Positions 1,424-53,270 of a stretch of DNA of 64,000 nucleotides are shown one piece after another (positions within the stretch are counted from its first letter, which is position 1; every line of letters begins with the position of its first letter). Source of the DNA: a virus; IMG/VR virus record IMGVR_UViG_3300021963_000060, positions 1-64,000 of that record; one strand, 5' to 3'. Under the pieces are notes generated by a model. It ran no database searches. It saw only the letters and a program-made list of their open reading frames with translations, and was not told where the DNA came from. The translations under genes and the position numbers were made by a program.

Positions 1424-1585
1424 TTATGAAACGTCGTTTGATGTTTTACCTAACCATTCTTTACAATAGTCATAATCTCCAAACATAAACTCGTCACATT
1501 CTGCTGCTTCTCGATATGCATTCATTATTTCTTGCTCACACCATTCATCATAATTGGAATCCTGCGAAAGTATTTTTGGTAACAT
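1424..1585 (-). CDS. Small acidic protein after nrdB
   Basis: Up to 53 residues (MLPKILSQDSNYDEW... ending KTSNDVS), rich in Asp, Glu, Cys and Tyr; no family recognised. The longer start at 1585 overlaps the end of nrdB by 38 bases and has GGAGGA upstream inside nrdB. A shorter start at 1525 (MNAYREAAEC, 34 residues) is also possible. It precedes the terminator at 1388-1413. Confidence 0.5.
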   Translation of the reverse strand: MLPKILSQDSNYDEWCEQEIMNAYREAAECDEFMFGDYDYCKEWLGKTSNDVS

Positions 1586-2732
1586 CTTGCTTGATTCCTC
1601 CGACTACGTATGATTCAACCTCCGTTTCCTGGGGAGCAACCTGGAGTCCTTTAGAAGAGATCCAGTGCTGGGTCCAAGGAAGTGGATTATTGTTTGCTGA
1701 AATATCGTATTGGGGCTTTAACCCAATTGCTTTTAGTCTTCTATTTGCAATCCATTCTACGTATTGTTGAAGAAGTTTGTCGTTAAGTCCAATCATGCTA
1801 CCATCTTTGAACAGATAATCTGCCCACTTCTTTTCTTCATTTACAGCACGATCAAACATCTTATACGTCCATTCTTCTTCCTCTTTCATAATTTTTTGCA
1901 TTTCAGGATCATCACCTTCCCTCCACTTATTCAGAATGTTCTGAGTAAGTGCTAGATGTTGGTTTTCGTCTCTTGCGATAAGAGAGATGATTTTAGCTGA
2001 TCCTTCCATGAGCTTAAGTTCACCGAATGCGAAACTACAAGCAAAACTAACGTAGAACCTAATACCTTCAAGAATGTTAACGTTGGCGACTGCTCTATAG
2101 AGTTTTCGTTTAACGTCATTTAGTGTTTCCTTTGCGTTTTTAACTCCTTCAAGTCTAAACATCCAATCATTGGATGTTCCATAAGTCTGTGCAGATTGAA
2201 TGAAGTCATCATAAGACTCTGTAACGCTCTTAGCACGTTCTAGAATACGATCATCTCCAATAATAGTATCAAACACCTCAGAAGGGTCTGAATAGATATT
2301 CTTAATGATATAAGTGTATGAACGACTATGGATCATCTCCATAAATCCCCATACTTCCATACATGCCTCAAGTTCTGGTAGAGAACAATAAGGAATGAAA
2401 GCCATACCAGGACCACGACCCTGAACAGAATCAAGCATGATCTGATACTTCAAATTGGAAGTATAGATATGCTTTTGTTCTGGGCGAAGAGTCTGATAGT
2501 CTCCACGATCCTTCTGGAGAGAAACCTCTTCAGGTCTCCAGAAGTATCCAAGTTGTTGAGACGTTAGTTTATCGAAAATTGGATATTTGTAAGAATCATA
2601 TCTCTGAATTCCCAAAGGTTTTCCAAAGAACATTGGTTGTTTTTTAGTATTCACTTGTTCCGTATTAAATACGGTCATTCCAGAAAGTTTAGTCATGTTC
2701 TGCTCTTCGGTTTTCAGAAAATTGTACTCCAT
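1548..2732 (-). CDS. nrdB: Ribonucleoside-diphosphate reductase, class Ia beta (small) subunit
   Basis: Holds the di-iron/tyrosyl-radical cofactor that drives reduction of NDPs to dNDPs by NrdA, supplying phage DNA synthesis. Iron ligands are visible as D78 (KDRGDYQ), E132 and H135 (MEMIHSRSYT), E222 (NILEGIRF), and E256 and H259 (ARDENQH). The radical tyrosine is Y139 in HSRSYT. The 394-residue length fits T4 NrdB (388). The first ATG has AGAGGT six bases upstream; an internal start at 2696 (MTKLSGM) is the alternative. nrdA ends 69 bases upstream, in the same direction. Confidence 0.96.
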   Translation of the reverse strand: MEYNFLKTEEQNMTKLSGMTVFNTEQVNTKKQPMFFGKPLGIQRYDSYKYPIFDKLTSQQLGYFWRPEEVSLQKDRGDYQTLRPEQKHIYTSNLKYQIMLDSVQGRGPGMAFIPYCSLPELEACMEVWGFMEMIHSRSYTYIIKNIYSDPSEVFDTIIGDDRILERAKSVTESYDDFIQSAQTYGTSNDWMFRLEGVKNAKETLNDVKRKLYRAVANVNILEGIRFYVSFACSFAFGELKLMEGSAKIISLIARDENQHLALTQNILNKWREGDDPEMQKIMKEEEEWTYKMFDRAVNEEKKWADYLFKDGSMIGLNDKLLQQYVEWIANRRLKAIGLKPQYDISANNNPLPWTQHWISSKGLQVAPQETEVESYVVGGIKQDVTKNTFAGFQL

Positions 2733-2801: not shown

Positions 2802-5099
2802 TTAGATTTTACAAGATTCACAATCCTCTTCTTCTGAGTTCATAATATCATTTATCAAACTTTCCAAGTTGGGTTTTTCTTCTTTCACTTCATCAGTCTT
2901 AATATCATAAGTATTTTGATAATAACTGGTTTTCCAACCAAACTTATAAGTTGTTAGAAGATCTTGAGCCATTACGGAAGTTGGAACTTCATTATCTTTA
3001 TAATTCTCTGGATTATAAGACCAATTCCCACTAATTGCCTGATCAAAGAATTTTTGCATCACAGCAACAACATTAATATAACCACGATTAGACTCCATAT
3101 CCCAAAGAAGAGTATAGTGATTCTTGAGCGAATGATACTGTGGAACAATCTGCTTAAGGGGTCCTTTTTTACTTTTCTTAATGGACAAGTAATCTCTAGG
3201 AGGTTCGATTCCATTTGTTGCATTTGACACAACGGAACTGCTCTCCGAAGGCATCTGTGCGGACAGTGTTGAATGTCGTAGACCATGTGCCTGAATCTCG
3301 GCACGTAGAGTTTCCCAATCATGTTGAAGTTTAACTGAAGTAATTTCGTCTACATCTTGCTTATAAGTATCAATTGGAAGGATACCATCAGCATACTTAG
3401 TACGACCAAAGTATTCACAATATCCCTTTTCTTTTGCAAGTTGATTGGATGCTTTCAGTAGATAATATTGAAAAGATTCGGAAAGACCGTGAACTGCATC
3501 CCATGCTTCCTGTGAGTCATACTTAAATCCAAGTTTCGCCAAATAATGAGCTAAACCGATAAAACCTACTCCAAGAGATCTACGCGCCTTGGTGGCGATT
3601 TCCGCCGCCTCTACGGGGTATTTTTGATAGTCAATCAACTCGTCAAGACTACGAACGGAAAGTTCACAAAGTTCTTCAAGTTCTTCATCGGACTTAACTT
3701 TACCAACATTGATAGCAGAAAGAATGCAAAGAGCAATCTCACCCATCTTATCATCAATATGTTGGATTGGATCAGTAGGTAAGGTAATCTCTTGACAGAG
3801 ATTGCTCATATTAACTTTATCTTTAAATGATGAATGGGAATTACAATGGTCAATATTCATAATGTAGATACGACCCGTTTCCGCACGTTCCTTGAGAAGG
3901 TTAAGAATGAGTTCTTGCGCTTTAATAGTTTTTTTCGGAATGGACGAATCTTTTTCATATGCACAGTAGAGCTCATCAAAACCAGGGAGTCCAAAGCGAT
4001 CATAAAGCCCAGGTACATCATGGGGGGAGAAAAGCGTGATCTCACCATCCTGAATGAATCTCTCATAGAAGAGTTTGCTGATTTGAATACTGTAATCAAG
4101 TTTACGAACACGATTATCCTCCGTACCCTTATTGTTTTTGAGAACAAGAATATCTTCTATTTCTTGGTGCCAGATTGGGAAGTGGACCGTCGCGCTTCCT
4201 CCTCGTATACCATTTTGCGTGCAGCAACGGACAGTTGCTTCAAACTTTTTGAGAAACGGTACAACGCCAGTGTGCTGGACTTCGCCACCTCTAATTTTAC
4301 TGTTGATACCACGGATTCTACCTGCGTTGATACCGATTCCCGCCCTTTGTGCAACGTATCGACCAATAGCCATATCAGAGCTAAAGATAGAATCGAGGGT
4401 GTCATCAACATCAACAAGAACACAACTAGCAAATTGTCTAAGTGGCGTTCGCACTCCCGCCATGATGGGAGTGGGGATGTTGATTTTGTGCTTTGAGATT
4501 GCGTCATAATACCTCTTTACATAAGAGAGTCTTGTTTCTTTTGGATACTCAGCAAAGATAGTCAGAGCAATCATCATGTACATAAACTGTGGAGTTTCGT
4601 ATACTCCACCACTACTTCTATCTTGCACGAGGTACTTATCAACGACTTGACGTAAACCTGCATAAGTGAACAGGAAGTCACGATCATGATCAATATAGGA
4701 ATTAATCTTTTCAATTTCTTCCTTAGAATATTTACTAAAAATATCTGAGTCATATACTTCTTGAGCAACGCAGTTGTAAATATGCTCCTCTAAAGAAGGA
4801 AGTTCTTTCATCTTTCCATACAGTTGCTTACGCACAGCAAATAGTAAAAGGCGAGCGGCAACATATTGATAATTTGGATGATCAAGATCGATTAGATCAC
4901 TTGCACTACGAATTAGAATTTCTTGAATTTCTCCAGTGGTAATTCCATCATAAAATTGAATACCAGAAGTCATCTCAACTTGACTCGCAGAGACGCCTGC
5001 AAGACCCCTACACGCCTCTTCAACCATCAAATGCATCTTATCAAGGTCAAGAGACTCAATTCGACCATCACGCTTTTTAACCTTTGTACCGTTACTCAT
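2802..5099 (-). CDS. nrdA: Ribonucleoside-diphosphate reductase, class Ia alpha (large) subunit
   Basis: Catalytic subunit reducing ribonucleotides to deoxyribonucleotides. It has an N-terminal ATP-cone-like region (VKKRDGRIESLDLDKM), active-site cysteines C226 (FASCVLV) and C458 (IALCILSAIN), and the N-L-C-Q-E catalytic motif at 433-437. Near the C-terminus are the radical-transfer tyrosine pair (TSYYQNTYD) and the shuttle cysteine pair in the final CESCKI. Nothing essential is missing, and 765 residues is normal. It overlaps the primase gene by ATGA, so the two are probably co-translated. Confidence 0.97.
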   Translation of the reverse strand: MSNGTKVKKRDGRIESLDLDKMHLMVEEACRGLAGVSASQVEMTSGIQFYDGITTGEIQEILIRSASDLIDLDHPNYQYVAARLLLFAVRKQLYGKMKELPSLEEHIYNCVAQEVYDSDIFSKYSKEEIEKINSYIDHDRDFLFTYAGLRQVVDKYLVQDRSSGGVYETPQFMYMMIALTIFAEYPKETRLSYVKRYYDAISKHKINIPTPIMAGVRTPLRQFASCVLVDVDDTLDSIFSSDMAIGRYVAQRAGIGINAGRIRGINSKIRGGEVQHTGVVPFLKKFEATVRCCTQNGIRGGSATVHFPIWHQEIEDILVLKNNKGTEDNRVRKLDYSIQISKLFYERFIQDGEITLFSPHDVPGLYDRFGLPGFDELYCAYEKDSSIPKKTIKAQELILNLLKERAETGRIYIMNIDHCNSHSSFKDKVNMSNLCQEITLPTDPIQHIDDKMGEIALCILSAINVGKVKSDEELEELCELSVRSLDELIDYQKYPVEAAEIATKARRSLGVGFIGLAHYLAKLGFKYDSQEAWDAVHGLSESFQYYLLKASNQLAKEKGYCEYFGRTKYADGILPIDTYKQDVDEITSVKLQHDWETLRAEIQAHGLRHSTLSAQMPSESSSVVSNATNGIEPPRDYLSIKKSKKGPLKQIVPQYHSLKNHYTLLWDMESNRGYINVVAVMQKFFDQAISGNWSYNPENYKDNEVPTSVMAQDLLTTYKFGWKTSYYQNTYDIKTDEVKEEKPNLESLINDIMNSEEEDCESCKI

Positions 5100-11317: not shown

Positions 11318-12496
11318 TTATTTTTTCTTATACTTATTTATGAAATTCTTTATTTTCTTTGTTCCGGTCATTTTCATAGCATACTCTCTATAAGAGTCTG
11401 TTCCAACTTCTCTTTCTTTTGCAGGAACTCCAGATACTTCTGTCCATTCGGAAACATCTTTGATCCATGGTTTAAACATAATATTATTTTCAGTAACACA
11501 TATTAAATAATTCGCTCCTCGACGAATAATTTTTCCAACTAATCCAGTATTTAAATTTTCAACAAACTCACCAACTTTGTATATTTCATTTCTAACATAT
11601 AACTCACGAAGTCCTTCAATATCTTCCTTAGGACATATTTCCCACAGATTCCATCCTTCCTCAATTTTCATCGACTTTCGGATAGTTAAAAATAATTTTC
11701 TTGCCTCTTTATCATCAAGTGTTTTAGGTGTTCCCTTTCTAAAAGTTTCAAAATCATTTTCAGCGGCTGCTTTACGCATTTTTGAAGCGGACATCCCACT
11801 CACATCATCAGCATCAGGATCTCTTTCTCCAGCAGAAACTACATTTAATTCAGCAAAGTCATAAAGATCTCCATTATACTTATTAGCTAGCTTTTCAAAT
11901 TCTGCTTGACGATCTGATCCAACAACAATATTAACTCCACTGTATCCATCCGCATGTGCTTGTTTTAATACATCAAAGATTGTTCTTGAATTTGCATCAT
12001 TAACAATTCTTTCACCATGCTTTGGATACATCTGACGCATCACAGATATTTTAGTATCAGGATCTAAAGGATTTTTCTTAGGATCATTAGATCTTGAAGG
12101 ATATATTTTATACTCTCCTCCCTTTCCTGCTACATTTGCAACAGTATCCAACAACTTCTCATGTCCAGTTGTTGGTGGATTAAATCTACCAAAAGCAATC
12201 GTCAAAACACCTTTATCTTCTGGTTGCGTTTCTTGCTCTGGTTCTTGTTGTGTTGGTTGAACTTGCGTCGCAACTGGTTGTTGATTTGCAACCGTTCTTT
12301 GTTGGGGAGGATCTTGCTCACCTGTGACTTGATTTTGATTATAAAACTTTAGTTTTCCACCGACAGTTTTAGCTGTAAATTCTCCATTTTTATCATACCA
12401 ACCACCATGACCATCTCCAGTCAAGCCAAGCCTTTTCGCTTGCATAACTGCCTGCGAATCTCTTACCTCAGATAAAAATCGTGAAAAACTTTTCAT
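11318..12496 (-). CDS. Cytidylyltransferase/NMN-adenylyltransferase-like protein with capsid-targeting-like N-terminus
   Basis: 392 residues. Residues 1-11 (MKSFSRFLSEV) resemble the T4 internal-protein capsid-targeting peptide, including an L-x-E site after residue 10. A Gln/Pro linker (about 60-93) leads to a nucleotidyltransferase core: AFGRFNPPTTGHEKL with the T/H-x-G-H motif at 109-112, and SGMSASKMR (233-241), equivalent to the ISSTxxR motif. Such enzymes join a nucleotide to a phosphorylated substrate (NMN, pantetheine phosphate or glycerol phosphate); the substrate here is unknown. A C-terminal beta module (about 290-350) follows. AATAAATA at 12516-12523 may be its late promoter. Confidence 0.75.
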   Translation of the reverse strand: MKSFSRFLSEVRDSQAVMQAKRLGLTGDGHGGWYDKNGEFTAKTVGGKLKFYNQNQVTGEQDPPQQRTVANQQPVATQVQPTQQEPEQETQPEDKGVLTIAFGRFNPPTTGHEKLLDTVANVAGKGGEYKIYPSRSNDPKKNPLDPDTKISVMRQMYPKHGERIVNDANSRTIFDVLKQAHADGYSGVNIVVGSDRQAEFEKLANKYNGDLYDFAELNVVSAGERDPDADDVSGMSASKMRKAAAENDFETFRKGTPKTLDDKEARKLFLTIRKSMKIEEGWNLWEICPKEDIEGLRELYVRNEIYKVGEFVENLNTGLVGKIIRRGANYLICVTENNIMFKPWIKDVSEWTEVSGVPAKEREVGTDSYREYAMKMTGTKKIKNFINKYKKK

Positions 12497-22860: not shown

Positions 22861-23246
22861 TTTTTTCCGCCAGTTTCAAGTCGTTGTTTAATAAAATCGA
22901 GTTGAGATTTTGATAAGATTTTCAAAGCCTGAAATGCTTTTTCATTACTATAACCATAGTATTGCTTAACGCACTCTAAATCTTTGATTTTATCTTTTCG
23001 GATCCAAGGAGAAAATCTCTTCTTTTTCCTTAGACTATTTAGATAAAATGAATATTGTAGATCTTTATCCAAGTGATGATTAATATTCATCTCATTTGCA
23101 TAAAGAATACAATCAATATGTCCAGAAAGGCATCTGTTTATAATATAAGACGGATATTCTTTTTTAAGATTTACTGAGGAATCCTCTGCAAGATTTTCCT
23201 TAGTAAAGTTGATGGAGTTTAACCAATCTTTAAGTTCGTAAGTCAT
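22857..23246 (-). CDS. 62: Sliding-clamp loader small subunit (gp62-like)
   Basis: 129 residues (MTYELKDWLNSINFTKENL...). Matches the short cyanophage form of gp62 in size, helical content and position between RegA and the clamp-loader ATPase. With gp44 it loads clamp gp45. Much shorter than T4 gp62 (187), so the call rests on synteny and cyanophage resemblance more than motifs. Confidence 0.8.
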   Translation of the reverse strand: MTYELKDWLNSINFTKENLAEDSSVNLKKEYPSYIINRCLSGHIDCILYANEMNINHHLDKDLQYSFYLNSLRKKKRFSPWIRKDKIKDLECVKQYYGYSNEKAFQALKILSKSQLDFIKQRLETGGKK

Positions 23247-24358
23247 CGTATAATTTGAATTTCATCTTCATCGGTCCAAAGTTCAACTTTGGTTCTAAAC
23301 CTTCCCTCTTCCTTTAACTTCTCATATCTCTTTGCTGATTTCTTTTTCCACCAAGAAATAATATTCTCAAGATGAAATTTATCCCAATTCTGACCACGGA
23401 TCAATTTATCCTGTTCGCCAAGAATTACTTCACGAACATTTTCATAACCATAGTCTGAGATATAAAACCTCTTCTTTTGCGTAAGAGCAAAGGCAGTATC
23501 AATGACTTTATTAAAGTCTGCTAGTTTTTCTTTATCTTGTAAAGAATTCCTAATGATAGAAATCATTTTAGTTTGCCTTTTCATCTTTTTTGATGAGGCT
23601 TTGTTATCAGTTAAAGGAGTGTTGTTATTCAAATAGGTGAATCTATCATGCAACTTATGAAATACATCGTCATGCAGTAACGGAAGAAATTTACTTTCAG
23701 TAAGTCCTTTGTATCTCATGTATGGTTTAAGTCCATCATATTGTGATGCATCTGTTGTTGAACCATAAAGAGATGTGGTTTCAAAAAGAGCGATATCCTT
23801 TTCAAAAACTTCATTAAGAGTCTCACGAGCAAAATGAGAACAGCACAGTAAAGCAAGAAGTTTTCCCCCAAGATAGTTGTATCCAAAGGGTTGGGATGGA
23901 ACAATCACAAATCCCATTGCAGCATGACGATTAAAAATAGAAAGGTCAGGTGTTCTACCTAACCATTCATTTCTTGGTTTTGAATTAATTGTAGGAGAAC
24001 CAAAACGAATAAACCCTAATATTTTACTTGTATTTTTTTCAAATACCATCCAACGAAGTTCTCTTCCTGGAATATTAGATTCATTATTATGAGATGAAAC
24101 TACTTGTAAAAGATTATTATAATGTTCCTGAGGTAGAGATTGTTGAAAACGATCTCCTATAAATTTAATATCAAATTCCATGTCTTCTGGATGAATATCT
24201 TCATTAAAGAATTCATCATGAAGAGGAGCGATGGTATTTGTTCCTTTAACAAGTTTCTTTTTAACAAAGCGCAAATAGTCTTCAATACTTCCCATATGTG
24301 AGAAGTAATCAATAAACTCATTTGCTGCCCATAAAGCATCTTGTTCAGAAACTATCAT
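23243..24358 (-). CDS. DruA-like (DUF4338) protein in the clamp-loader operon
   Basis: 371 residues. The core at about 100-240 resembles DUF4338/DruA: LRWMVFEKNTSKILGFIRFG (101-120), RNEWLGRTPD then a FNRHAAMGFVIVP block, YNYLGGKLLALL (160-171) and ETTSLYGS (193-200). DUF4338 was named for the Druantia anti-phage defence protein DruA; its biochemical activity is not known to me. Here it sits between gp62 and two small genes, coupled by 4-base overlaps, so it is expressed with the replisome. A role in host takeover, superinfection exclusion or replication is open. Confidence 0.7.
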   Translation of the reverse strand: MIVSEQDALWAANEFIDYFSHMGSIEDYLRFVKKKLVKGTNTIAPLHDEFFNEDIHPEDMEFDIKFIGDRFQQSLPQEHYNNLLQVVSSHNNESNIPGRELRWMVFEKNTSKILGFIRFGSPTINSKPRNEWLGRTPDLSIFNRHAAMGFVIVPSQPFGYNYLGGKLLALLCCSHFARETLNEVFEKDIALFETTSLYGSTTDASQYDGLKPYMRYKGLTESKFLPLLHDDVFHKLHDRFTYLNNNTPLTDNKASSKKMKRQTKMISIIRNSLQDKEKLADFNKVIDTAFALTQKKRFYISDYGYENVREVILGEQDKLIRGQNWDKFHLENIISWWKKKSAKRYEKLKEEGRFRTKVELWTDEDEIQIIR

Positions 24359-26219: not shown

Positions 26220-26366
26220 TCAAATTGGTTGGGGTCCACCCACAATTATAGCAGATGGAACCTGTGCCTGTGCAATCTTTTTAGCCTGGGATTGACTGCT
26301 AGCATCAACAACCATTTCTAGATACCTATTGTCCCCAGGCAATTTATATTTTACTGAATACTTCAT
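26220..26366 (-). CDS. 48-residue protein between clamp and glycosylase-like gene
   Basis: MKYSVKYKLPGDNRYLEMVVDASSQ... PSAIIVGGPQPI. A small beta-alpha-beta unit with regular hydrophobic spacing. Its ATG overlaps the end of gp45, indicating coupled translation. No function is recognised. Confidence 0.65.
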   Translation of the reverse strand: MKYSVKYKLPGDNRYLEMVVDASSQSQAKKIAQAQVPSAIIVGGPQPI

Positions 26367-27028
26367 CCAAAAGTAGAATCGGGTTCTAGAGCAATATGAT
26401 AAATCAGATCATAATCAGTATGACTGAATTTAGATAGTAGTTTCTTAGAAATAACTACCTCATATGAACCAGGAAGAATCTTGATATTTTCTACCTTGAA
26501 GTTGAAAACAAACTCAGAGTCAGTCTCACCAACAACAATAGAAAAGTCGTTTGAAGTGTCGTTCTTTTTGTCACGAACAACAAGTTTAACTACTCCATTT
26601 TCACCAACAGCAGAAAGATCTGGAAGTTGACCAACAGCAGATGCCTTCAGAAGTTTATCTAGTTGCTGAGTACTGAGTTCGAAACAAACATCTTCACTTG
26701 GAAGAACAATATCTTTTTCTGGAGGGACAACAATTACATTAGGATCAGCAAAGAAATATTTTGATCGATTTTTACCTTCTTTGATGACCACATAATTATC
26801 ATTCTCAAAGTCCAACTCAGCAGGTTGGTAAAGAGCAAGAAAATTAAGGAATTGGTTCAGGTCATAGATACCAAAATCTTTTGTGAAATCTTCAGTAATT
26901 TTTGCTTCTGCTAGAATGTTTTTCATAACAGAAATTGTCCTAAGAGTATTTCCTTCCTTAAAAAGAATTGATTGATTGATGGAAGAAAAATTCTTTAGGA
27001 GGTTGAGAGTTTTATCAGATAGTTTCAT
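26363..27028 (-). CDS. 45: DNA polymerase sliding clamp (gp45-like)
   Basis: 221 residues of alternating beta-sheet with two-domain clamp character (MKLSDKTLNLLKNFSSINQ, VMKNILAEAKITEDFTKDFG, FELSTQQLDKLLKASAVGQ). It forms a trimeric ring that tethers gp43 and, in T4, also activates late transcription with gp55. Length equals T4 gp45 (228) within a few residues. It lies next to the clamp-loader genes, as expected. Confidence 0.93.
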   Translation of the reverse strand: MKLSDKTLNLLKNFSSINQSILFKEGNTLRTISVMKNILAEAKITEDFTKDFGIYDLNQFLNFLALYQPAELDFENDNYVVIKEGKNRSKYFFADPNVIVVPPEKDIVLPSEDVCFELSTQQLDKLLKASAVGQLPDLSAVGENGVVKLVVRDKKNDTSNDFSIVVGETDSEFVFNFKVENIKILPGSYEVVISKKLLSKFSHTDYDLIYHIALEPDSTFG

Positions 27029-27521: not shown

Positions 27522-28649
27522 TCAGAAAGGAGTAGGTTGGTCAATATTGGGGTTGTAGTCAACCTGCTCAGTAGGCATTTGGAAGTCAGCATCTACTTTA
27601 TCATACAGTTCCAGGAATGCTTGCTTGGTTTCGTCATCAAAACGATTCACACAAACTTGAATTGCCTTTGCCTTATCTTGGAAAATGCTGTAAGCACGGA
27701 TGATATGAACGAGTCGGCGGGTGCTGATGATTTCCTCAATCCCACCATCATAGAACGTTTTACGAATGATATCTGCCCAGTCAACCAGGCGCTTGCAGAA
27801 GTTGCGGTCTTCCACCTGCAGATCCAGCGCAACGCCTTCTAGGATCTTCTGCTCGGTACTGGGAGCGGGATAGGACTGCTCAAAGGTCACAGGGAAACGT
27901 TCAAGGAATGCTTCGTTGAGAACATTAGTACCGATAAAGCGGCCATCGTCAGAACCCTTACCCTTAGTGTTAGCGGTAGCGATAACATTGAAACCTGCGG
28001 TAGGTTTCACGAAACGACCAATCTTTTTAAGAAAGACGCCTTTACCTTCTAGGATGGATTGCAGACATAGAATTTTGTTAGAAGCAAGGTCAATCTCATC
28101 CAACAAAAGAACAGCACCACGCTCAAGTGCTTCTACAACAGGACCATTATGCCAAACAGTTTCACCGTTCACAAGGCGGAAACCACCAATTAGATCATCC
28201 TCATCAGTTTCGATCGTAATGTTTACACGAATTAGTTCACGCTTAAGTTGAGCACACGCCTGCTCAACAGAGAACGTTTTACCGTTACCCGAAAGACCCG
28301 TAATGAACGCAGGATAAAAAATACGGGACTGAATAATACGTTTAATATCTTTAAAGTTACCAAACTGGACGAAGGTATCATCTTTATCAGGAATTAGATT
28401 TTGTTCCACAGCAGGAAGAACTGAAGGAGCTTGATATGAACGTTCGATCTCTTCTACTCGTTCACGAGTGATCTCCATATTCCAACGACCACGACCAACT
28501 TTAAATTGTTCCAGTCGCTTAGTTACAGTTGGATAGGAAATACTTTTAGAAGCACAATAACCACGAACATCAGCAGCAGTAAATTCTGTACCGAAAGTAT
28601 TTTTGAGATCAATAAGAATTTGGTCGTCGGTCATTTTAAGGCGAGACAT
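27522..28649 (-). CDS. cobS: CobS-like MoxR-type AAA+ ATPase
   Basis: 375 residues. A small N-terminal helical domain (1-60, ADVRGYCASKSISYPTVTKR) is followed by an AAA+ core: Walker A GLSGNGKT (118-125), Walker B VLLLDEIDLA (about 186-195), sensor 1 NVIATANT, arginine finger in LNEAFLERFPV. Cyanophages carry this gene as cobS, named for the cobalt-chelatase subunit. No CobN is in the window, whereas a VWA partner lies 0.8 kb downstream, the usual MoxR-VWA pairing. Remodelling of a host or phage complex is therefore at least as likely as cobalamin synthesis. Confidence 0.88.
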   Translation of the reverse strand: MSRLKMTDDQILIDLKNTFGTEFTAADVRGYCASKSISYPTVTKRLEQFKVGRGRWNMEITRERVEEIERSYQAPSVLPAVEQNLIPDKDDTFVQFGNFKDIKRIIQSRIFYPAFITGLSGNGKTFSVEQACAQLKRELIRVNITIETDEDDLIGGFRLVNGETVWHNGPVVEALERGAVLLLDEIDLASNKILCLQSILEGKGVFLKKIGRFVKPTAGFNVIATANTKGKGSDDGRFIGTNVLNEAFLERFPVTFEQSYPAPSTEQKILEGVALDLQVEDRNFCKRLVDWADIIRKTFYDGGIEEIISTRRLVHIIRAYSIFQDKAKAIQVCVNRFDDETKQAFLELYDKVDADFQMPTEQVDYNPNIDQPTPF

Positions 28650-28715
28650 GAATGGGTCATTTGTTTCAACAGAGTCATTATAAGGGAAAAAAGGTCTTGG
28701 TTTCCCACCGAGTGG

Positions 28716-28901
28716 TCAGTTCGCCAACTGGTTGCGCCACTTATTCAAATATTCTTCAGTTACAATTTTTGCAGTGTATCCTGGGTAATACTTATTCACT
28801 AATGAAGAAAGTCCCATAGCAGTGATACTGCTATTACATTTAATCCAAACTTCTTTACTATCATATTTTATAATGTGGTCAAATGGAAATTTAGTCTTCA
28901 T
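28716..28901 (-). CDS. 61-residue protein upstream of the CobS-like gene
   Basis: MKTKFPFDHIIKYDSKEVWIK..., ending WRNQLAN: a compact alpha/beta sequence with no known domain. It lies between the basic DUF5872-like gene and cobS, same strand. The 66-base interval after it contains TATAAT (28677-28682) without a good -35. Confidence 0.6.
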   Translation of the reverse strand: MKTKFPFDHIIKYDSKEVWIKCNSSITAMGLSSLVNKYYPGYTAKIVTEEYLNKWRNQLAN

Positions 28902-28904
28902 AAT

Positions 28905-29441
28905 TTACTTTTTCTTTTTGGATTTGTTCCCCCAGTTTGCTGCACCAACTTTACGGCATTTTGATAATGCTCCAGAAGCATATGCACTTGGCCAAACACT
29001 ATACCTAGATTTTACTTTTTTGTAGCAGGCATCTTTTTCACCTGCCTCTTCCTGAGTCACTATTTTTGCAGCGCCAGATCTATTTGGATTTGGATCTTCT
29101 CTACGCTTCTTAGCGGCTCTCTTATTTCTCTCATCCTTATCCATTGCAGCACGATCGTCTGCGTCTCTACAATAAGGTTTAGTTTTTTGTCCAGGTTGCT
29201 TAGCACAAGGTTTCCCATCATACTTTCCGCCAGCCTGAACCCATCCACCGCCCTTAAACCAATCTCTTAGAGAATATCCAGGATCTTTTGCAGATTTACC
29301 ATCAAGTGCTTCTTCTACTTTTTTTCTTCCAGCACAATGCGCTCTCTGACTGAATCCTTTAGGGTTATTGCAGTCTATTGACTTTTTATATTTTTGAGAC
29401 CAGCTCTCACTAGTCTCCATAAACTCTCTAAAAGATTTCAT
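28905..29441 (-). CDS. Basic DUF5872-like protein with capsid-targeting-like N-terminus
   Basis: 178 residues, strongly basic, six or more Cys. It starts MKSFREFMETSESW, matching the T4 internal-protein pattern. The middle resembles DUF5872-type repeats: GGGWVQAGGKYDGKPCAKQ, GQKTKPYCRDADDRAAM, then KDERNKRAAKKRREDPNP. The C-terminus has CYKKVKSRYSVWPSAYASG and KCRKVGAANWG, a small Cys motif widespread in cyanophage and algal-virus proteins. A CATAAATA late-like octamer (29453-29460) precedes it. A packaged DNA-binding role is inferred. Confidence 0.7.
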   Translation of the reverse strand: MKSFREFMETSESWSQKYKKSIDCNNPKGFSQRAHCAGRKKVEEALDGKSAKDPGYSLRDWFKGGGWVQAGGKYDGKPCAKQPGQKTKPYCRDADDRAAMDKDERNKRAAKKRREDPNPNRSGAAKIVTQEEAGEKDACYKKVKSRYSVWPSAYASGALSKCRKVGAANWGNKSKKKK

Positions 29442-29455
29442 TTTTTTACAAATAT

Positions 29456-31672
29456 TTATGCTACCAAAGAAATAAACTCACCGAGAACTTTTTTATTGAG
29501 TTTTTTGGTTTTCAGAGATTTAGCAAACGCGGATTTAATTTGTGCTTTAGTTGCATGTTCATGAATATCAAACTCAGTATCCTGAGAAAGTGCCGATGAA
29601 GAAAGACCAAAATACGCATCATATCCAGAGTTGGTGATAGTAAAACTCTTTAGTTTCTTCCAGTCACTCTGGATTTTTTCATACTGCTTATCATTATGGG
29701 AGTGATACATCTGAACAAATCGACTCATATTGCGGCCATCAAGAACACGGATACCAATAAAGTTTGTATTGGAAAACTTATCTTTTAGGTTTCTTAGGAG
29801 AAGATCAGTAAACTCATGGTATGCATATCTAAACTGATATGTAGTTCCAAGTTTACGATCACGCAAAAATGTACTCATTGGATTGATATATCCATTTCCA
29901 ATATAAGGTTCTTTCTCCCAGCGACGATGAACCTCTTTATGACATACTAGTTGATTTGCTTCACCATCGGTAAGAACAATACACTGAACTTTTTGCAGTT
30001 TGTTCTCCTTTTGAAACTTTGGAAGAATCTGATGAAGTGCAATCAAAGACTCATTAAGAGGAGTACCAGAAAGACTCATGCGACTAGAATAAGTATAAGG
30101 AGAACTGTAACTCCTACCAAAACAGTAAGCAAGACGCCAAATATTAAGCATCTGATGTTCAAGAATGCTACCAGAAACTTTACTAGTAAGAATGTTCATC
30201 ATAGAGAAAGTCTCATCAACAACTAGAAGACCATCCTTCTTTTGATAATGGGGGGTACGGTCTGCAGCAAGATATCGATCATTTTCATAATCATACTCAC
30301 CACGCCGCCATTCATTAGTAAAAGCATAAACTTCAAAAGGAATAGAGACCTTCTTACAGAACCAAATAAGGTTGAAGAGTTGCTTACAAGTATCAAGCAT
30401 CACTTCGGCCATGGAACCACTCCAGTCCAGAACAAATACCAGACCATGATTTTTACCATCAGGAATCACAGATACTTTTTTGAACAGATCTTCATTGTAT
30501 TTGTAAGTGTGAAGACGGGCAGTATCAAGAACTCCTGTACGAGCAGTAGATGCACGAGAGTATTGATCTGCTGCTTTGCGACATTCAAATTCTTTTACCA
30601 AATAGTTAACTTCTTTCTGAGCAGAAGACTTGAACTTTCTATACTCAAGGTCAGACTCCTCATAAAGATTTACTGCTCCATATCCTTTATCTTTAGCATG
30701 TTCATTATGAATTTTCTGTTGATGGGCAAATGAATCATCAATATCTTTATGGACATTGAAATTTTTCCCAATTACAGTTTCAAGATTTACCTGAGGAATT
30801 TCGAGATAAACATTATCATAACTATCATTACCCACAAGATCTCGAATCTTATCTTCAAGAGATTCTGCAGTACGAACCTCAGGATCTTTATCTGATTCTT
30901 GTGATTTTACGGTAGTGTCTTCACCTTGAGCATTACCAGTTTCCCCATTATCATTTTGTGGTTGAGAGTTATCACTATCACCATCTTGTTCAGAAGATGA
31001 ATCATTACTTTCTACAATCTCATTTGATTGAGATTGTGATTGAGAATTTCCTGGAGTTTCATGAGAATCTAGATCAGCAACCTTTTGTTGCTTCTCCTTT
31101 TCTTTCTTACAATATTTGTAAAGTTCCTCAGCAGCAATTAGTGCATCTGCGAAACTTTCACATGCACCAATCATATTAATAATTTCTTTTTCCTCAGAAG
31201 AGAAATCCAGAGTAATAAAGTTACCAATCTTGAAATATAGATTGGCTCGGTCAGCAAGATTGAATGTAGAAATATCCTCTTCTTCGAGTTGGAAGAAATC
31301 TTCTTCGTTCAGTTCTTTGTAACCATTGAAGAAAGTCTTAGCAAGACCAGCATACTTACGCTTCATCAGTTTCTCAATGCGAGCATCTTCAACTACATTC
31401 ACAAACTGTGCTGGGATCTTATATTTTTTCAACCAATCCTCATCTGGGGTAAACAAAGCATGACCCACCTCATGACCCACCAGAAGGTCATATACGAGAC
31501 TGCTTGCCTTTTCCCACATAGGAAGCGTAAGAACACGGGTATGAACGTTAAAGCAAGCAGTAGGAACTTTCTTATGCTCTACCACAAGATCCTCAGTGGC
31601 TAGAAGTTTAGCGAGTTGAGATTTAATTTCGTGACGGACGGCCATTGGGTTTGTTTCGTATGAAGACATCAT
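29456..31672 (-). CDS. Metallopeptidase-VWA protein, CobT-like partner of the AAA+ ATPase
   Basis: 738 residues. The N-terminal domain has a zincin motif HEVGH (67-71), followed 23 residues on by VVEDARIE, a candidate third ligand. An acidic low-complexity linker (about 200-270, SQSQSQSNEIVESNDSSSE) separates it from a C-terminal von Willebrand A domain with a complete MIDAS DWSGSM (416-421) and downstream LTDGEAN. This architecture matches CobT/VWA proteins that pair with MoxR/CobS ATPases. Partner ATPase at 27522-28649. The start follows a short terminator-like hairpin. Confidence 0.85.
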   Translation of the reverse strand: MMSSYETNPMAVRHEIKSQLAKLLATEDLVVEHKKVPTACFNVHTRVLTLPMWEKASSLVYDLLVGHEVGHALFTPDEDWLKKYKIPAQFVNVVEDARIEKLMKRKYAGLAKTFFNGYKELNEEDFFQLEEEDISTFNLADRANLYFKIGNFITLDFSSEEKEIINMIGACESFADALIAAEELYKYCKKEKEKQQKVADLDSHETPGNSQSQSQSNEIVESNDSSSEQDGDSDNSQPQNDNGETGNAQGEDTTVKSQESDKDPEVRTAESLEDKIRDLVGNDSYDNVYLEIPQVNLETVIGKNFNVHKDIDDSFAHQQKIHNEHAKDKGYGAVNLYEESDLEYRKFKSSAQKEVNYLVKEFECRKAADQYSRASTARTGVLDTARLHTYKYNEDLFKKVSVIPDGKNHGLVFVLDWSGSMAEVMLDTCKQLFNLIWFCKKVSIPFEVYAFTNEWRRGEYDYENDRYLAADRTPHYQKKDGLLVVDETFSMMNILTSKVSGSILEHQMLNIWRLAYCFGRSYSSPYTYSSRMSLSGTPLNESLIALHQILPKFQKENKLQKVQCIVLTDGEANQLVCHKEVHRRWEKEPYIGNGYINPMSTFLRDRKLGTTYQFRYAYHEFTDLLLRNLKDKFSNTNFIGIRVLDGRNMSRFVQMYHSHNDKQYEKIQSDWKKLKSFTITNSGYDAYFGLSSSALSQDTEFDIHEHATKAQIKSAFAKSLKTKKLNKKVLGEFISLVA

Positions 31673-32133: not shown

Positions 32134-33846
32134 TTAGGCTACCATATGTGAAAAACCTTTGACCTTCTCAAATCTTATGACACTTTGGAATCTGTCCTCA
32201 AGACCAGTCTTGTGGGAGATAACGAATATGTTAGCATCTTTAACCACATAACGAATGATCTTTAAAAATTCTTCAGTACCAGTGCTGTCTAGAGATGAAT
32301 CGAAAACTTCATCCATAATTAACAAATTGGTATTTGTTGAATTTTTAAATTTAGCAACTTCTCTCCAAGTAAAAAGAAGTGCTAGATCGATTCTTTGCTT
32401 TTCTCCTTCGCTAAAAGAAGAGTATGAAAAATCTTCATGAATGGGAGATTGGACAGTTTCATTAAATTCTTCATCAAGAGTAAAGTTGATGTAAAAATCC
32501 ATCATTTGAAGATAGCGATTTACCTGCTGATTAATAAGAGGCAAATACTTCTTAATAATTTTAGTTTTTACACCACCATCTTTGAGCAAAGAATATGAAA
32601 AATCATGATATGAAATTAACTCTTTTTTCTCAGACAAATTATCAAAGGCTTCTGATAGATCTGTTTTAAACTTTTCTAGTTTTTCATGTTCAGAATTTTT
32701 GTTTTCAAGTTGAGAGGTAATTTTTTGAATTTCAGATTCCAGATCTCTGATCTGTCTCTGGTGTCCAGATACTCTTGTATTATTTTGAGAAATTTCATGG
32801 TTTAGGTTAGTTATTTCTTTTGAAATACGTAGAAAATGACTTTCTCGAATTTCTTCATCACGAATTGCTTGCTCAAGTTCTTCATAACCACTACGAAGCT
32901 CTTTTGCCTTTAATTCGGCTTCACTAATCTTATTTAACCGAAATTCTTCATCAATATTTTGAGTACATGTTGGGCAAACCGAATTCTCAGTGAAAAATTT
33001 ATGCTCAGTTGTAATTGTTGATACTTTTTGAGAAATTTTTCCTTTGAGATTTCCTAGTTTTTTAAGTTTACTAGTAGAACCAGATACTTCTTCTAAATCT
33101 TTAGATAAGGATAATACTTGTTCTTCGATTTTAGAGTTATTAATCTCGTAATCTTCACACTCTGATAAAAGTTGAATTATTGTACTTTTTTTAGTGTCGA
33201 TAGTTTGTTTTCCTTCCTTTTCCAACTTATTGATAAAGTTGGTTTGCATTTCGACTTTATCTTTAAGCGAATCTCTTTTAAGATCTAATGTGCGAATATC
33301 TTCTTTCAGACTTCTAATTTTCTCTTTAATAAGAGTATTCATCGTAGAAAAGATTTTGATATCTAAAAGATCTTCAATAACTTCTCTACGACTTGCAGCA
33401 GAAAGTTGCATGAATGGAACAAAGTTACTGCTTCCTAGAATTACAATTTGGGTAAATGATTTATAATTCATTTTTAGAACAGTCTGCTCTAACCATTTTT
33501 GCTGATCTACTGCTGATGAATTTTGATCTAATAGAGATCCATTCCTGTATATTTCAAAAATACTCGGTTTAATTCCACGAACTACTTTCCAAGAAATAGA
33601 TCCCGTCTTGAATTCAATTTCAACTAAACAATCTTTTTCATTAATTGAATTTAATAGTTGTGGTTTATTAATTTTTCTAAATGCTTTTCCAAATAGAACA
33701 AATGTTAAAGCATCAAGAATAGTGCTTTTACCTGCACCATTATGACCCACAATAAGAGTAGTTGATTTTTTATCCAGTTCAATTTCTGTAAATTGATTTC
33801 CAGTTGAAAGAAAATTTTTCCAACGAATTTTTTCAAATAAAATCAT
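32134..33846 (-). CDS. 46: Recombination nuclease ATPase subunit (gp46, Rad50/SbcC-like)
   Basis: SMC-like ATPase that with gp47 resects DNA ends for recombination-dependent replication. Walker A GHNGAGKST (34-42), long coiled coils either side of a zinc hook CPTC (291-294), C-terminal signature FSEGEKQRIDLAL and Walker B NLLIMDEVFDS. 570 residues against 560 in T4. Overlaps the DUF3110-like gene by 14 bases. Confidence 0.96.
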   Translation of the reverse strand: MILFEKIRWKNFLSTGNQFTEIELDKKSTTLIVGHNGAGKSTILDALTFVLFGKAFRKINKPQLLNSINEKDCLVEIEFKTGSISWKVVRGIKPSIFEIYRNGSLLDQNSSAVDQQKWLEQTVLKMNYKSFTQIVILGSSNFVPFMQLSAASRREVIEDLLDIKIFSTMNTLIKEKIRSLKEDIRTLDLKRDSLKDKVEMQTNFINKLEKEGKQTIDTKKSTIIQLLSECEDYEINNSKIEEQVLSLSKDLEEVSGSTSKLKKLGNLKGKISQKVSTITTEHKFFTENSVCPTCTQNIDEEFRLNKISEAELKAKELRSGYEELEQAIRDEEIRESHFLRISKEITNLNHEISQNNTRVSGHQRQIRDLESEIQKITSQLENKNSEHEKLEKFKTDLSEAFDNLSEKKELISYHDFSYSLLKDGGVKTKIIKKYLPLINQQVNRYLQMMDFYINFTLDEEFNETVQSPIHEDFSYSSFSEGEKQRIDLALLFTWREVAKFKNSTNTNLLIMDEVFDSSLDSTGTEEFLKIIRYVVKDANIFVISHKTGLEDRFQSVIRFEKVKGFSHMVA

Positions 33847-34109: not shown

Positions 34110-35150
34110 TTAGACCAGTTCGCAAGCTTCCTGATATATCTCTGATACTATCTTCCTAATAATGTTCTTATCAAGTTCAATATCAGATTCTTCAATATAT
34201 CTATCAAGAATAGAAAGAGTGTCTTCTGATTCAAATGCTTCAAATTCTTCTTTTTCTTGAATTTGAAAGTTCTCTACGATTTTAAGTTCTGAAATATTTG
34301 ATGAATAAAGTTTATCAATAAATTTTTCAAACTTTTTAACATCAGTCTTTTTACGAACTACTACCTTTACAATTTTATTCTCATATTGACGAGTATCAAA
34401 TGTTTGATAGTTTGTATCCTCATAGTAAATGTTGTAGAACATTTTATAAGGATTATCAATTGGAGTATGCTCTAATGTTTCAGTATCAAAAATAGTGAAT
34501 CCACGAGTATCATTTACATCTGTCCAATAAATCTCATAAGGATTTCCTAGATAGAAGACTGTTCCGTTAGTCGATCGAGTGTGATAGTGTCCCGAGAAGA
34601 CACGTTCGAACTTTTCAAATAACTTGCTTTCCAAACCATGCTCCATGACGATTTGGCGATTAACTCTAAATCCTTGGAGTTCAAGGTGCCCCATCGCACA
34701 CGGGCAAGTTGTCTTTTGAATAAGTTTGAGAGTGCTTTCTTCATTTTCTTGATTAATCCATGGAATAAAAAGTGTTGGAAGTTTATCCAACATCACTTCA
34801 GTTGGTTCTGAATATACTGTTACATTATTATATTCACGCAGAAGAAGATCAACTGCGTTTACATTATTTGTATTCTTATAATAGGCTGTATGGTTCCCTA
34901 CAATTGTATGAACCTTTACTCCCATTTCTTGGAGACGATCGTAGTAATTATTCTTTGCCCAGGATAGGGCAGAAAAATCAATACCCTTTCGACTATCAAA
35001 AGTATCTCCCATATCCACAACAGTAGTAATCCCTTGCTCTTCGAGTGCAGGGAAAAATACGTTGTTATAGAACTTTAGAAAATAATCATGAAAGAGTTTA
35101 GAATTCTTTCTTGCCCCAAAGTGCTGATCAGTAATAATTGCTACTTTCAT
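34110..35150 (-). CDS. 47: Recombination nuclease subunit (gp47, Mre11/SbcD-like)
   Basis: Metallophosphoesterase acting with gp46. Phosphodiesterase motifs: TDQHFGARK (8-16), MGDTFDSRKG, TIVGNHTAYY and SGHYHTRS, supplying the two-metal ligands. 346 residues (T4: 339). It ends one base before the DUF3110-like gene and starts directly after gp55, so gp55-gp47-DUF3110-gp46 form one unit. Confidence 0.95.
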   Translation of the reverse strand: MKVAIITDQHFGARKNSKLFHDYFLKFYNNVFFPALEEQGITTVVDMGDTFDSRKGIDFSALSWAKNNYYDRLQEMGVKVHTIVGNHTAYYKNTNNVNAVDLLLREYNNVTVYSEPTEVMLDKLPTLFIPWINQENEESTLKLIQKTTCPCAMGHLELQGFRVNRQIVMEHGLESKLFEKFERVFSGHYHTRSTNGTVFYLGNPYEIYWTDVNDTRGFTIFDTETLEHTPIDNPYKMFYNIYYEDTNYQTFDTRQYENKIVKVVVRKKTDVKKFEKFIDKLYSSNISELKIVENFQIQEKEEFEAFESEDTLSILDRYIEESDIELDKNIIRKIVSEIYQEACELV

Positions 35151-51578: not shown

Positions 51579-53270
51579 TCAGCAATTCCAAGCTCTAAGT
51601 GACTTATTGATTCTGCTATCGGGATCGTTAGCAGTTTTTGCACTTGTTAGTTTTGATTTCATTCCCTTCATTCTGGCGCAAAATGACGCCCTGCGGGGAT
51701 TTCCAACCTTCTTTGAAGGTGCCTTAAGGTCGCTTCCAGGATTCTCACGCTCATAAGATTTGCGTCCTTTTTCATTTAGACCGCCCTCTTTATTTTTTCC
51801 CGATTCACGAGTCCATGCGGCAGATTCTCCTAATTCTCCAAGTGCTTTTGCTTTGCGAATCTTCTTAGGATTCTTAAGTTTACCACCAGGATAGTTTCTT
51901 TCATCATTACCCTCAAAATCAGGATCTACATTAGCACGATGTCTTGCTGCTCTTTCAGGAGATGCTTTATCTGCGTGAATACCCGCTCTACGATTAGGAG
52001 CAATCTTATCTGCTGCTCTCTTTTCCTTCTGCTTCTGACGACTTCTTTGCTTTTTGAAGTCTTTTATCGTCATACCTTCTTCAATTTCAAACTCTTCTCC
52101 CATTGGTCTTATATAACCTTTACTTGGTTTTGGGTTAGCACTGCTTCCTCCCTGAGGACCAACTGCTTGAATGAGAGCCTGTCCAGGTTGAATTTGAGAA
52201 ATTGAATGATGAACTAAGCTGCAACCTGGATATACTTTTTGTAATTCATCAGTGACTTCTTTTCTGGAAGGTAATTTAGTTTGTGGGAAAAACATATTCA
52301 TTGAATAATATTTTCCTCTCCAAAGCACAGTTGCTAGAATTACATTACCATTTTGCGCTTTCATTCTTGTTGTTGCCTCAGATACCATTGTTTTTTTGAT
52401 ATCTTCTGGTTTAATTAGATCAATAAATTCTACAAACTTATTACCAAACATATCTTCAATTTCTAAACTTTCTGACTTAGTTTTTTTAGATTCTACTTTT
52501 TTTAACTTAGTGTAATAATCAGGAACTTCGTCCAAATGTTGTAATGCGGTTATTCTTGCTGCAGTTTTATCTGAAGTGTGCTCACCTTCAACTTTAATAC
52601 CCATCTCTAATTGCTTTTTAATTGCTTCTAGAGATACTCCATGCTTTTTAGCAATTTCTTTTGGTGACTTATATGCTTGTACAGGACCTTTTGGATCCTT
52701 TTCTTCTTTTACAGAACAATCTTTATAACCATGAACTGGACATCTTTTTTCTTTCTTAGATTTATTGCATTCACAACCTTCTTCTTGTAGAATCTTTTCA
52801 ACTAAAGATAGTTCCTCTTTTTTAACAGTAGGCAAACTAACTGCTGCTGCTTTTTTCTTTTGAAGTTCTATTGCCTTTGGTCCCAATTGCTTAGCTGCAT
52901 CTGGTGTTAGTGCTCCTGCACCAGAAGATTTTTTAACAGCAAAACTAATATCTTTTCCTTCAGGTACACAGTTAGGAACAGTTTTTTTACCTTTTTTCTT
53001 CATTCCAATCTGTTTGTATCCTTTCCAACATGCCTCATCAATTTCTTCATCGCTATCCAAATAGTCGGCCGCAGTATCAATATAGTCTGCTGCTTTAGTA
53101 ATTTTCGATTGTACCCATGCAGGTAGTTGGGTATCTCCACTTTTTATTACTTTTTTTAATCTTTTTACAGATTTTTCAATTGTATCCATCTCATTATGAG
53201 CCATATATCCTTCATCATCCTTCCTTTTACCACTAGCAATTTCTTTGTGGTCTTCAGATAATCTTTTCAT
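51579..53270 (-). CDS. Composite structural protein with DUF5661-like and DUF6321-like parts
   Basis: 563 residues. An N-terminal helical domain (MAHNEMDTIEKSVKRLK, ADYIDTAADYLDSDEEIDEA) leads into CWKGYKQIGMKKKG. A Cys-rich stretch (CECN, CPVHG, CSVK) could bind metal. Then a DUF5661-like unit (about 215-265: GVSLEAIKKQLEMGIKVEGE, LDEVPDYYTKL), a beta middle (about 300-375) and a C-terminal DUF6321-like unit (AAWTRESGKNKEGGLN, SFCARMKGMKSKLTSAK). Individual modules are seen in many phage virion and host-take-over proteins; this fusion looks like a modular virion protein. Confidence 0.7.
   Translation of the reverse strand: MKRLSEDHKEIASGKRKDDEGYMAHNEMDTIEKSVKRLKKVIKSGDTQLPAWVQSKITKAADYIDTAADYLDSDEEIDEACWKGYKQIGMKKKGKKTVPNCVPEGKDISFAVKKSSGAGALTPDAAKQLGPKAIELQKKKAAAVSLPTVKKEELSLVEKILQEEGCECNKSKKEKRCPVHGYKDCSVKEEKDPKGPVQAYKSPKEIAKKHGVSLEAIKKQLEMGIKVEGEHTSDKTAARITALQHLDEVPDYYTKLKKVESKKTKSESLEIEDMFGNKFVEFIDLIKPEDIKKTMVSEATTRMKAQNGNVILATVLWRGKYYSMNMFFPQTKLPSRKEVTDELQKVYPGCSLVHHSISQIQPGQALIQAVGPQGGSSANPKPSKGYIRPMGEEFEIEEGMTIKDFKKQRSRQKQKEKRAADKIAPNRRAGIHADKASPERAARHRANVDPDFEGNDERNYPGGKLKNPKKIRKAKALGELGESAAWTRESGKNKEGGLNEKGRKSYERENPGSDLKAPSKKVGNPRRASFCARMKGMKSKLTSAKTANDPDSRINKSLRAWNC

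Follow-up and report, generated by a model that had tools for sequence, protein, structure and literature searches.

The cobS gene belongs to the core genome of marine T4-like cyanophages and is treated in the literature as an auxiliary gene of B12 metabolism. Liu et al. (2021) described a viral CobS-CobT pair, placed 'cobST' in the cyanophage core genome, in which cobT is annotated as a peptidase, called this peptidase label a mistake and proposed that the viral proteins hijack the CobN of the host (PMC8651126). In NorQD, a finger of the von Willebrand factor A (VWA) protein is inserted in the pore of the AAA+ protein, a flexible linker is present and the VWA domain rotates against the N-domain (PMC13036017). 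Here we analyse IMG/VR virus record IMGVR_UViG_3300021963_000060, which comprises 99,522 bases with the gene content of a T4-like cyanomyovirus, and in particular its positions 1 to 64,000 (the window, 64,000 nucleotides), which encode a CobS-like AAA+ ATPase and, near it, a 738-residue CobT-like protein that joins a HExxH motif to a VWA domain. The gene pair itself is already published and is not new; the conserved metal site is the addition of this analysis. We suggest that the two proteins probably constitute a two-component MoxR/VWA machine similar to NorQ/NorD in which the CobT-like partner carries a ligand-complete metallopeptidase domain.

The initial annotation had recognized in the 738-residue protein an HEVGH motif together with a VWA domain with a complete metal ion-dependent adhesion site (MIDAS), and conservation bears this out. 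The protein matches phrog_459, labelled 'peptidase', at 9e-266 and has no match in Pfam or NCBIfam and none in the PDB by phmmer. H67, E68, H71, N92, E95, D96 and R98 are invariant in 101/101 full-length relatives, and so are the MIDAS residues D416, S418 and S420 (D416-x-S-x-S), T537 and D569; because these relatives reach down to about 21% identity, neither HEVGH nor the MIDAS is a chance motif. HExxH is followed by a downstream glutamate on the next helix (predicted helices 58-74 and 88-106), which is the gluzincin-type pattern. Given that this zincin site is complete and kept, the N-domain most likely binds zinc.

The AlphaFold2 model of the N-domain (predicted local distance difference test, pLDDT, of 85) begins with a helix and three strands, after which come the helix with HExxH and the one with the glutamate. 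Its top PDB matches are mostly zinc metallopeptidases (the minigluzincins jannalysin, abylysin and selecase, together with ArdC and PprI), with probabilities of 0.63-0.99 and E-values of 0.07 to 0.95 for the minigluzincins, and in BFVD it resembles the N-domains of CobT-annotated or VWA proteins of bacterial and archaeal tailed viruses (E 1e-5 to 2e-2). The model suggests that the N-domain likely has a minigluzincin-like zincin fold. Beyond this domain, the full-length model (pLDDT 78) shows a disordered acidic linker (23 acidic against 6 basic residues between positions 196 and 285), then a long helical hairpin and the VWA domain. In the PDB it comes closest to NorD of the NorQD complex (E-values of 1.3e-4, 7.9e-4 and 8.8e-4), i.e. 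the VWA fold resembles that of a known MoxR partner, and it also matches the MIDAS domain of midasin (8ql1, E 3.8e-3). By analogy, the hairpin may be the counterpart of the pore-inserting finger of NorD.

For the 375-residue ATPase, the Walker A/B motifs and arginine finger reported in the initial annotation are all present. The protein matches AAA_5 (6e-18), phrog_249 (4e-140) and the CobS model TIGR01650 (1.7e-19), and since it scores 70 bits against that model, below the curated cut-off of 558.6, it is CobS-like and not an equivalog. All catalytic motifs of MoxR/CbbQ-type AAA+ proteins are kept in an alignment of 80 CobS proteins, i.e. Walker A (GLSGNGKT), Walker B (LLLDEID), sensor 1 (ATAN), the arginine finger (NEAFLERF) and sensor 2 (STRR). 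In the PDB it is similar to the AAA modules of midasin (E 3e-46), to solved CobS, over a span of 240 residues, and to NorQ and CbbQ. The N-terminal extension of CobS is helix-turn-helix-like by weak, sub-threshold similarity (DUF2089-HTH, E=0.037). CobS proteins of other lineages (L120, 7078-8238; L013, L094 and L095) have an N-terminal Ros/MucR-like zinc finger, for which the PF05443 match is just at threshold in L120 and weaker, or by eye, elsewhere. Zinc finger and helix-turn-helix-like N-termini make nucleic-acid targeting of the ATPase possible.

The occurrence of the two genes ties them closely together. tblastn detected the VWA protein in 463 and CobS in 716 phage records, and matches covering at least 80% of the query came from exactly 458 records for each protein, with identical counts for Synechococcus, Cyanophage and Prochlorococcus (365, 61 and 24, by the first word of the record name). 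The loci compared come from viral contigs, from annotated phages and from genome assemblies; in 93/94 testable cases CobS adjoins the VWA gene on the same strand (median gap 246 bp; two in reversed order). The lone exception (L112) is a truncated protein, and its contig is chimeric and runs on into bacterial genes. The order gp46-CobT-CobS-gp45 is found in cyanophages S-SM1, P-SSM2, S-SRM01, S-RSM4, S-CAM1 and S-PM2 and also in pelagiphages HTVC008M and Mosig and in Ochrobactrum phage OC, in which the genes are annotated as CobT and CobS. Moreover, the pairwise distances of CobT and CobS correlate across 32 loci once the mean for gp44 to gp47 is taken out (partial r 0.61, with 0.60-0.69 for the leave-one-out sets), and this correlation exceeds that of either protein with any neighbouring core gene; because pairwise distances are not independent, we give no P-value. 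In total, co-occurrence, synteny and correlated divergence strongly support the ATPase/VWA association proposed initially; a strong fit to a monomeric virion component without conserved ATPase linkage had been named as what would refute that proposal, and the linkage is conserved. The pairing does not extend to all CobS-like phage ATPases, as the ATPase genes in Kayvirus, Microbacterium and Enterococcus phages lack a VWA gene as immediate neighbour.

Combining the occurrence data with the structural comparisons, we suggest a model of action by analogy with NorQD. In this model, CobS would assemble as an AAA+ ring on which the CobT-like protein would dock via its VWA domain, with the helical finger in the pore. 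The MIDAS or the N-domain would grip the target, and ATP hydrolysis would twist the VWA domain against the N-domain, which would hang on the flexible acidic linker, most likely binds zinc and may cut or tightly hold the remodelled protein. The target is probably a complex that takes part in replication, recombination or transcription of the phage, or else one of the host. Because both genes lie in the replication cluster and have no late-promoter-like motifs, the machine probably acts before virion assembly; a literature search returned no transcript-timing papers for cobS. Because the partner keeps a zinc-peptidase site that is lost in the B12 enzyme, the pair probably remodels or cuts proteins and does not serve B12 synthesis.

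The loss of this site is apparent in chelatase-type CobT. In all 30 such proteins of alphaproteobacteria (TIGR01651; L121-L150) HExxH is absent from the aligned place, where the eight that were aligned have DSYALR, DSFALR etc. with the downstream glutamate kept; an HEPAH string in one of the 30 (L131) lies outside the aligned site. SSU5-type CobT, which clearly matches PF06213/PF11775 and carries HEVAH, bridges the phage and chelatase groups. In the 32 loci of SSU5-type phage-plasmids, HEV[AG]H is present in 27/27 with a readable N-terminus, CobS is next to CobT in 31 and DNA polymerase III alpha comes after it in 29. The motif is also kept in RHEph10 (HEVAH), an ICP2-like phage (HECYH) and a Gordonia phage (HEIGH). 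Judged from these alignments, CobT exists in ligand-complete and ligand-less forms, the chelatase CobT being the ligand-less form, and the peptidase label of phage cobT may be right. The cyanophage 'peptidase' has the same position and the same partner as OC CobT and the two find each other by tblastn, and it is therefore likely the ortholog of the latter. CobT-CobS lies directly before DNA polymerase III alpha in the SSU5-type phage-plasmids (L151-L182) and similarly in Pseudomonas and Rhizobium phages (L095, L013 and L094), and this is a second replication-linked setting of the pair.

A search of 257 billion bases of genome sequence for a cellular origin of cyanophage-type CobT led us to reject such an origin: nearly all strong hits, which sit in metagenome-assembled genomes (MAGs) or isolate assemblies, have T4-like phage neighbours, a few lie on sequence too short for a decision, and resemblance to other CobT-like elements is confined to weak hits (L117-L120). 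OC-type CobS searched in viral contigs gave nothing. T4-like phage contigs with the CobT-CobS pair occur inside public assemblies labelled bacterial or archaeal (L097-L116; e.g. Nonlabens xiamenensis and a Euryarchaeota MAG), and distant pairs of CobS with an HExxH-VWA protein occur on contigs of Clostridiales and Planctomycetota MAGs (L117 and L120).

Taken to its full extent, our reading would be that viral CobST is an ATP-driven, VWA-guided metallopeptidase machine of phage replication and not a B12 pair, that chelatase CobT is a relative that lost the peptidase site, and that this applies across T4-like cyanophages, pelagiphages, enterobacterial phage-plasmids and other tailed viruses. In this full form the reading is tentative and rather unlikely. 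Several observations weigh against our main explanation, the NorQ/NorD-like machine with a ligand-complete metallopeptidase domain. Most of the loci are from cyanophages related to one another and so do not count as independent. No PDB match of the N-domain has an E-value below 0.07, and for this reason the zincin fold rests on the motif, the order of secondary-structure elements and the probability values. Similarly, the profile-profile match between the phage CobT-like protein and chelatase CobT is weak (probability 19%, E 0.0012), and homology between them therefore rests on the bridging phage CobT and on structural matches. In Pseudomonas phage ZY21, CobT no longer has the ligands (DSEISK) and is still paired with CobS, indicating that a peptidase site is not indispensable to a machine of this kind. 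Finally, CobN is present in assemblies of the presumed hosts Prochlorococcus and Synechococcus and in the S. elongatus control. The ZY21 protein, together with the ligand-less chelatase CobT, is also what would be expected if the pair were a pure remodelling chaperone in which the zinc of the N-domain is structural or provides a grip on the substrate and nothing is cut, and NorQD is described as a metal-insertion machine driven by twisting and not by cutting (PMC13036017). A structural zinc site would not need E68, and the invariance of this presumed catalytic residue in 101/101 sequences, beyond the ligands, counts against a pure chaperone, to which we nevertheless give some weight as the less likely explanation.

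Liu et al. would see in viral CobST a replacement motor, for ChlID or CobST, of the host CobN cobaltochelatase that boosts cobalamin during infection (PMC8651126). The search of host genomes that the initial annotation had proposed supports one premise of this idea, since CobN was found as described above and no chelatase CobT was found in the Prochlorococcus and Synechococcus assemblies; the similarity of the phage ATPase to solved CobS over 240 residues also speaks for it. Because of the host CobN, a chelatase role keeps some probability. On the other hand, CobS reaches 70 of the 558.6 bits of its model, neither the CobT-like protein nor anything else in the whole record matches TIGR01651 (cut-off 759 bits), and the phage protein keeps the zinc site that chelatase CobT does not have. 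A class I ribonucleotide reductase, an enzyme that works without cobalamin, is encoded by the phage itself (window 1548-2732 and 2802-5099), and related pairs are found in phages that infect Salmonella, E. coli and Vibrio cholerae, which are not known to carry CobN. The initial annotation had seen no cobN-like gene in the window, and there is none in the whole 99,522-base record, which may itself be incomplete. The doubt that it cast on cobalamin is thus reasonable in view of the low chelatase-model scores and the ligands lost in chelatase CobT, while its case is weakened by the CobN of cyanobacterial hosts; we consider a cobalamin role the less likely one and the replacement motor, specifically, unlikely. 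In cells, 186 of 240 genomes in the class of an assembly labelled Rhodobacteraceae (G002) match CobT and 93 match CobN, in genomes that may be incomplete, and the Caulobacter control, like many genomes with strong CobT, has no CobN. Even in cells, then, CobST often seems to occur in the absence of CobN, and it may there serve something other than cobaltochelatase.

The VWA protein could also be a virion component whose neighbour is accidental. It is large, and peptidases occur in prohead maturation of T4-like phages. Given its linkage to CobS, its location in the replication cluster and the lack of a late motif, we regard this as very improbable; moreover, in the part of the virion study consulted, the cyanophage-core proteins named as detected in virions are T4-GC 15 and 190 and not 146 or 150 (PMC3037559).

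The initial annotation had joined to the pair, as a possible remodelling or proteolytic module, the basic 178-residue protein encoded between CobT and CobS. Such a module, with the basic protein as substrate or partner, is suggested by the physical position of its gene in this window. Among 110 loci, however, this is the only one with the basic gene at that site; a relative lies elsewhere on its contig in L113, and relatives in other cyanophages are tens of kilobases from CobS. The basic protein matches phrog_727 (5e-45), a family that it shares with another gene preceded by a late motif (51579-53270); the label 'DUF5872-like' that it had been given is not supported, as Pfam gave no DUF5872 match at E<=1. 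Its N-terminus, MKSFREFMET, resembles by eye the T4 capsid-targeting type. Its gene is preceded by CATAAATA, a T4-type late promoter-like motif, whereas a scan of the window found none ahead of CobT, CobS, gp43, gp44, gp45, gp46 or gp47. The late motif NATAAATA occurs 24 times on the coding strand of the window vs once on the other; 13/24 fall just ahead of gene starts, in short zones that together cover 4% of the window (binomial 1.5e-12, with gene list and zone width being the analyst's choice), including those of the portal, tail sheath, scaffold and other, partly structural, genes. The late motif, the MK..F..F start and the unique position together make a late protein of the virion type, inserted between two genes that are not late, the most likely identity of the basic protein. 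On synteny and the late-promoter motif we reject the three-gene module, to which we give almost no credence: of the combination proposed initially, the conserved CobS-VWA pair stands and the third member falls.

Both the late-promoter-like motif and the MK..F..F start recur at the small ORF (open reading frame) ahead of the CobT-like gene, which begins with MKYKTFNEF and has TATAAATA 21 bases upstream; it likely encodes another late, packaged-type protein. A cytidylyltransferase (11318-12496) has a similar N-terminal start and the same late motif, and its class is, by name, among those detected in S-SM1 virions (PMC3037559). The ORFs described in the initial annotation are on the minus strand at the coordinates given there, and are listed with their neighbours in Table 1. 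Close to gp44, a 371-residue protein (window 23243-24358) matches DruA of the Druantia defence system (PF14236, E 3e-10).

Table 1. Genes and sequence features around the CobT-CobS locus (positions in the window)
Feature	Position	Strand	Remarks
gp47	34110-35150	minus	assigned by synteny with annotated phages
DUF3110 protein	between gp47 and gp46	minus	
gp46	32134-33846	minus	assigned by synteny with annotated phages
Small ORF, 76 residues	31727-31957	minus	between gp46 and CobT-like gene
CobT-like HExxH-VWA protein, 738 residues	29456-31672	minus	'peptidase' in cyanophage annotation; T4-GC 146; phrog_459
Zincin-like N-terminal domain, residues 16-200	31073-31627	minus	AlphaFold2 pLDDT 85; PDB matches with weak E-values
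HEVGH, residues 67-71	31460-31474	minus	putative ligands H67, H71; putative catalytic E68; 101/101
NVVEDARIE, residues 92-100	31373-31399	minus	E95 putative third ligand, 24 residues past H71; 101/101
Acidic, predicted-disordered linker, residues 201-265	30878-31072	minus	pLDDT 24-37 over most
Long helical hairpin, residues 304-379	30536-30763	minus	ahead of VWA domain; AlphaFold model
VWA domain with complete MIDAS, about residues 405-690	29603-30460	minus	best PDB match of full model NorD
Late promoter-like motif (T4-type), CATAAATA	29453-29460	minus	ahead of basic gene; overlaps last CobT-like codons
Basic protein, 178 residues	28905-29441	minus	between CobT-like and CobS genes in this window
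61-residue ORF	between basic gene and CobS gene	minus	
CobS-like MoxR/CbbQ-type AAA+ ATPase, 375 residues	27522-28649	minus	T4-GC 150; phrog_249
CobS N-terminal extension, residues 1-84	28398-28649	minus	conserved among cyanophage CobS
Walker A, GLSGNGKT, CobS residues 118-125	28275-28298	minus	80-protein alignment
DUF3310 protein	between CobS and gp45	minus	
gp45	26363-27028	minus	
Pyrimidine-dimer glycosylase, then gp44	beyond gp45	minus	gp44 by synteny with annotated phages

If CobS works with a metallopeptidase partner in a remodelling pair, the B12 metabolic reading becomes doubtful for a very abundant group of viruses, and E68 alone would tell a peptidase from a chelatase or a pure chaperone. 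The gene pair is a known one and its usual functional label is doubtful, for a reason that is clear and testable.

Among the described systems, the viral CobS-CobT pair (PMC8651126) is the same pair as here; that paper favours CobN hijack, whereas the zinc site found here points the opposite way. The aerobic cobaltochelatase CobN-CobS-CobT shares the domain order of its small and middle subunits and the 240-residue CobS similarity; it differs in that the phage pair scores far below the equivalog models, that the phage record has no CobN, and that chelatase CobT does not have the HExxH that phage CobT has at the aligned place. Midasin (Rea1/Mdn1) has AAA modules that match CobS and a MIDAS domain that matches the full CobT-like model, all in a single giant chain that acts on ribosome precursors, and we know of no zincin domain in it. 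The minigluzincins (jannalysin, abylysin and selecase) are the best PDB fold matches of the N-domain, with weak E-values, and share with it the HExxH with a downstream glutamate, in chains of ~105 residues that have neither a VWA domain nor an ATPase partner. NorQ/NorD, like the phage pair, combines an AAA+ ring protein with a VWA protein that has an N-domain, a flexible linker and a MIDAS; NorQD inserts iron into nitric oxide reductase, and in the part of the account consulted NorD is described without a peptidase site (PMC13036017), whereas the phage protein has a ligand-complete one.

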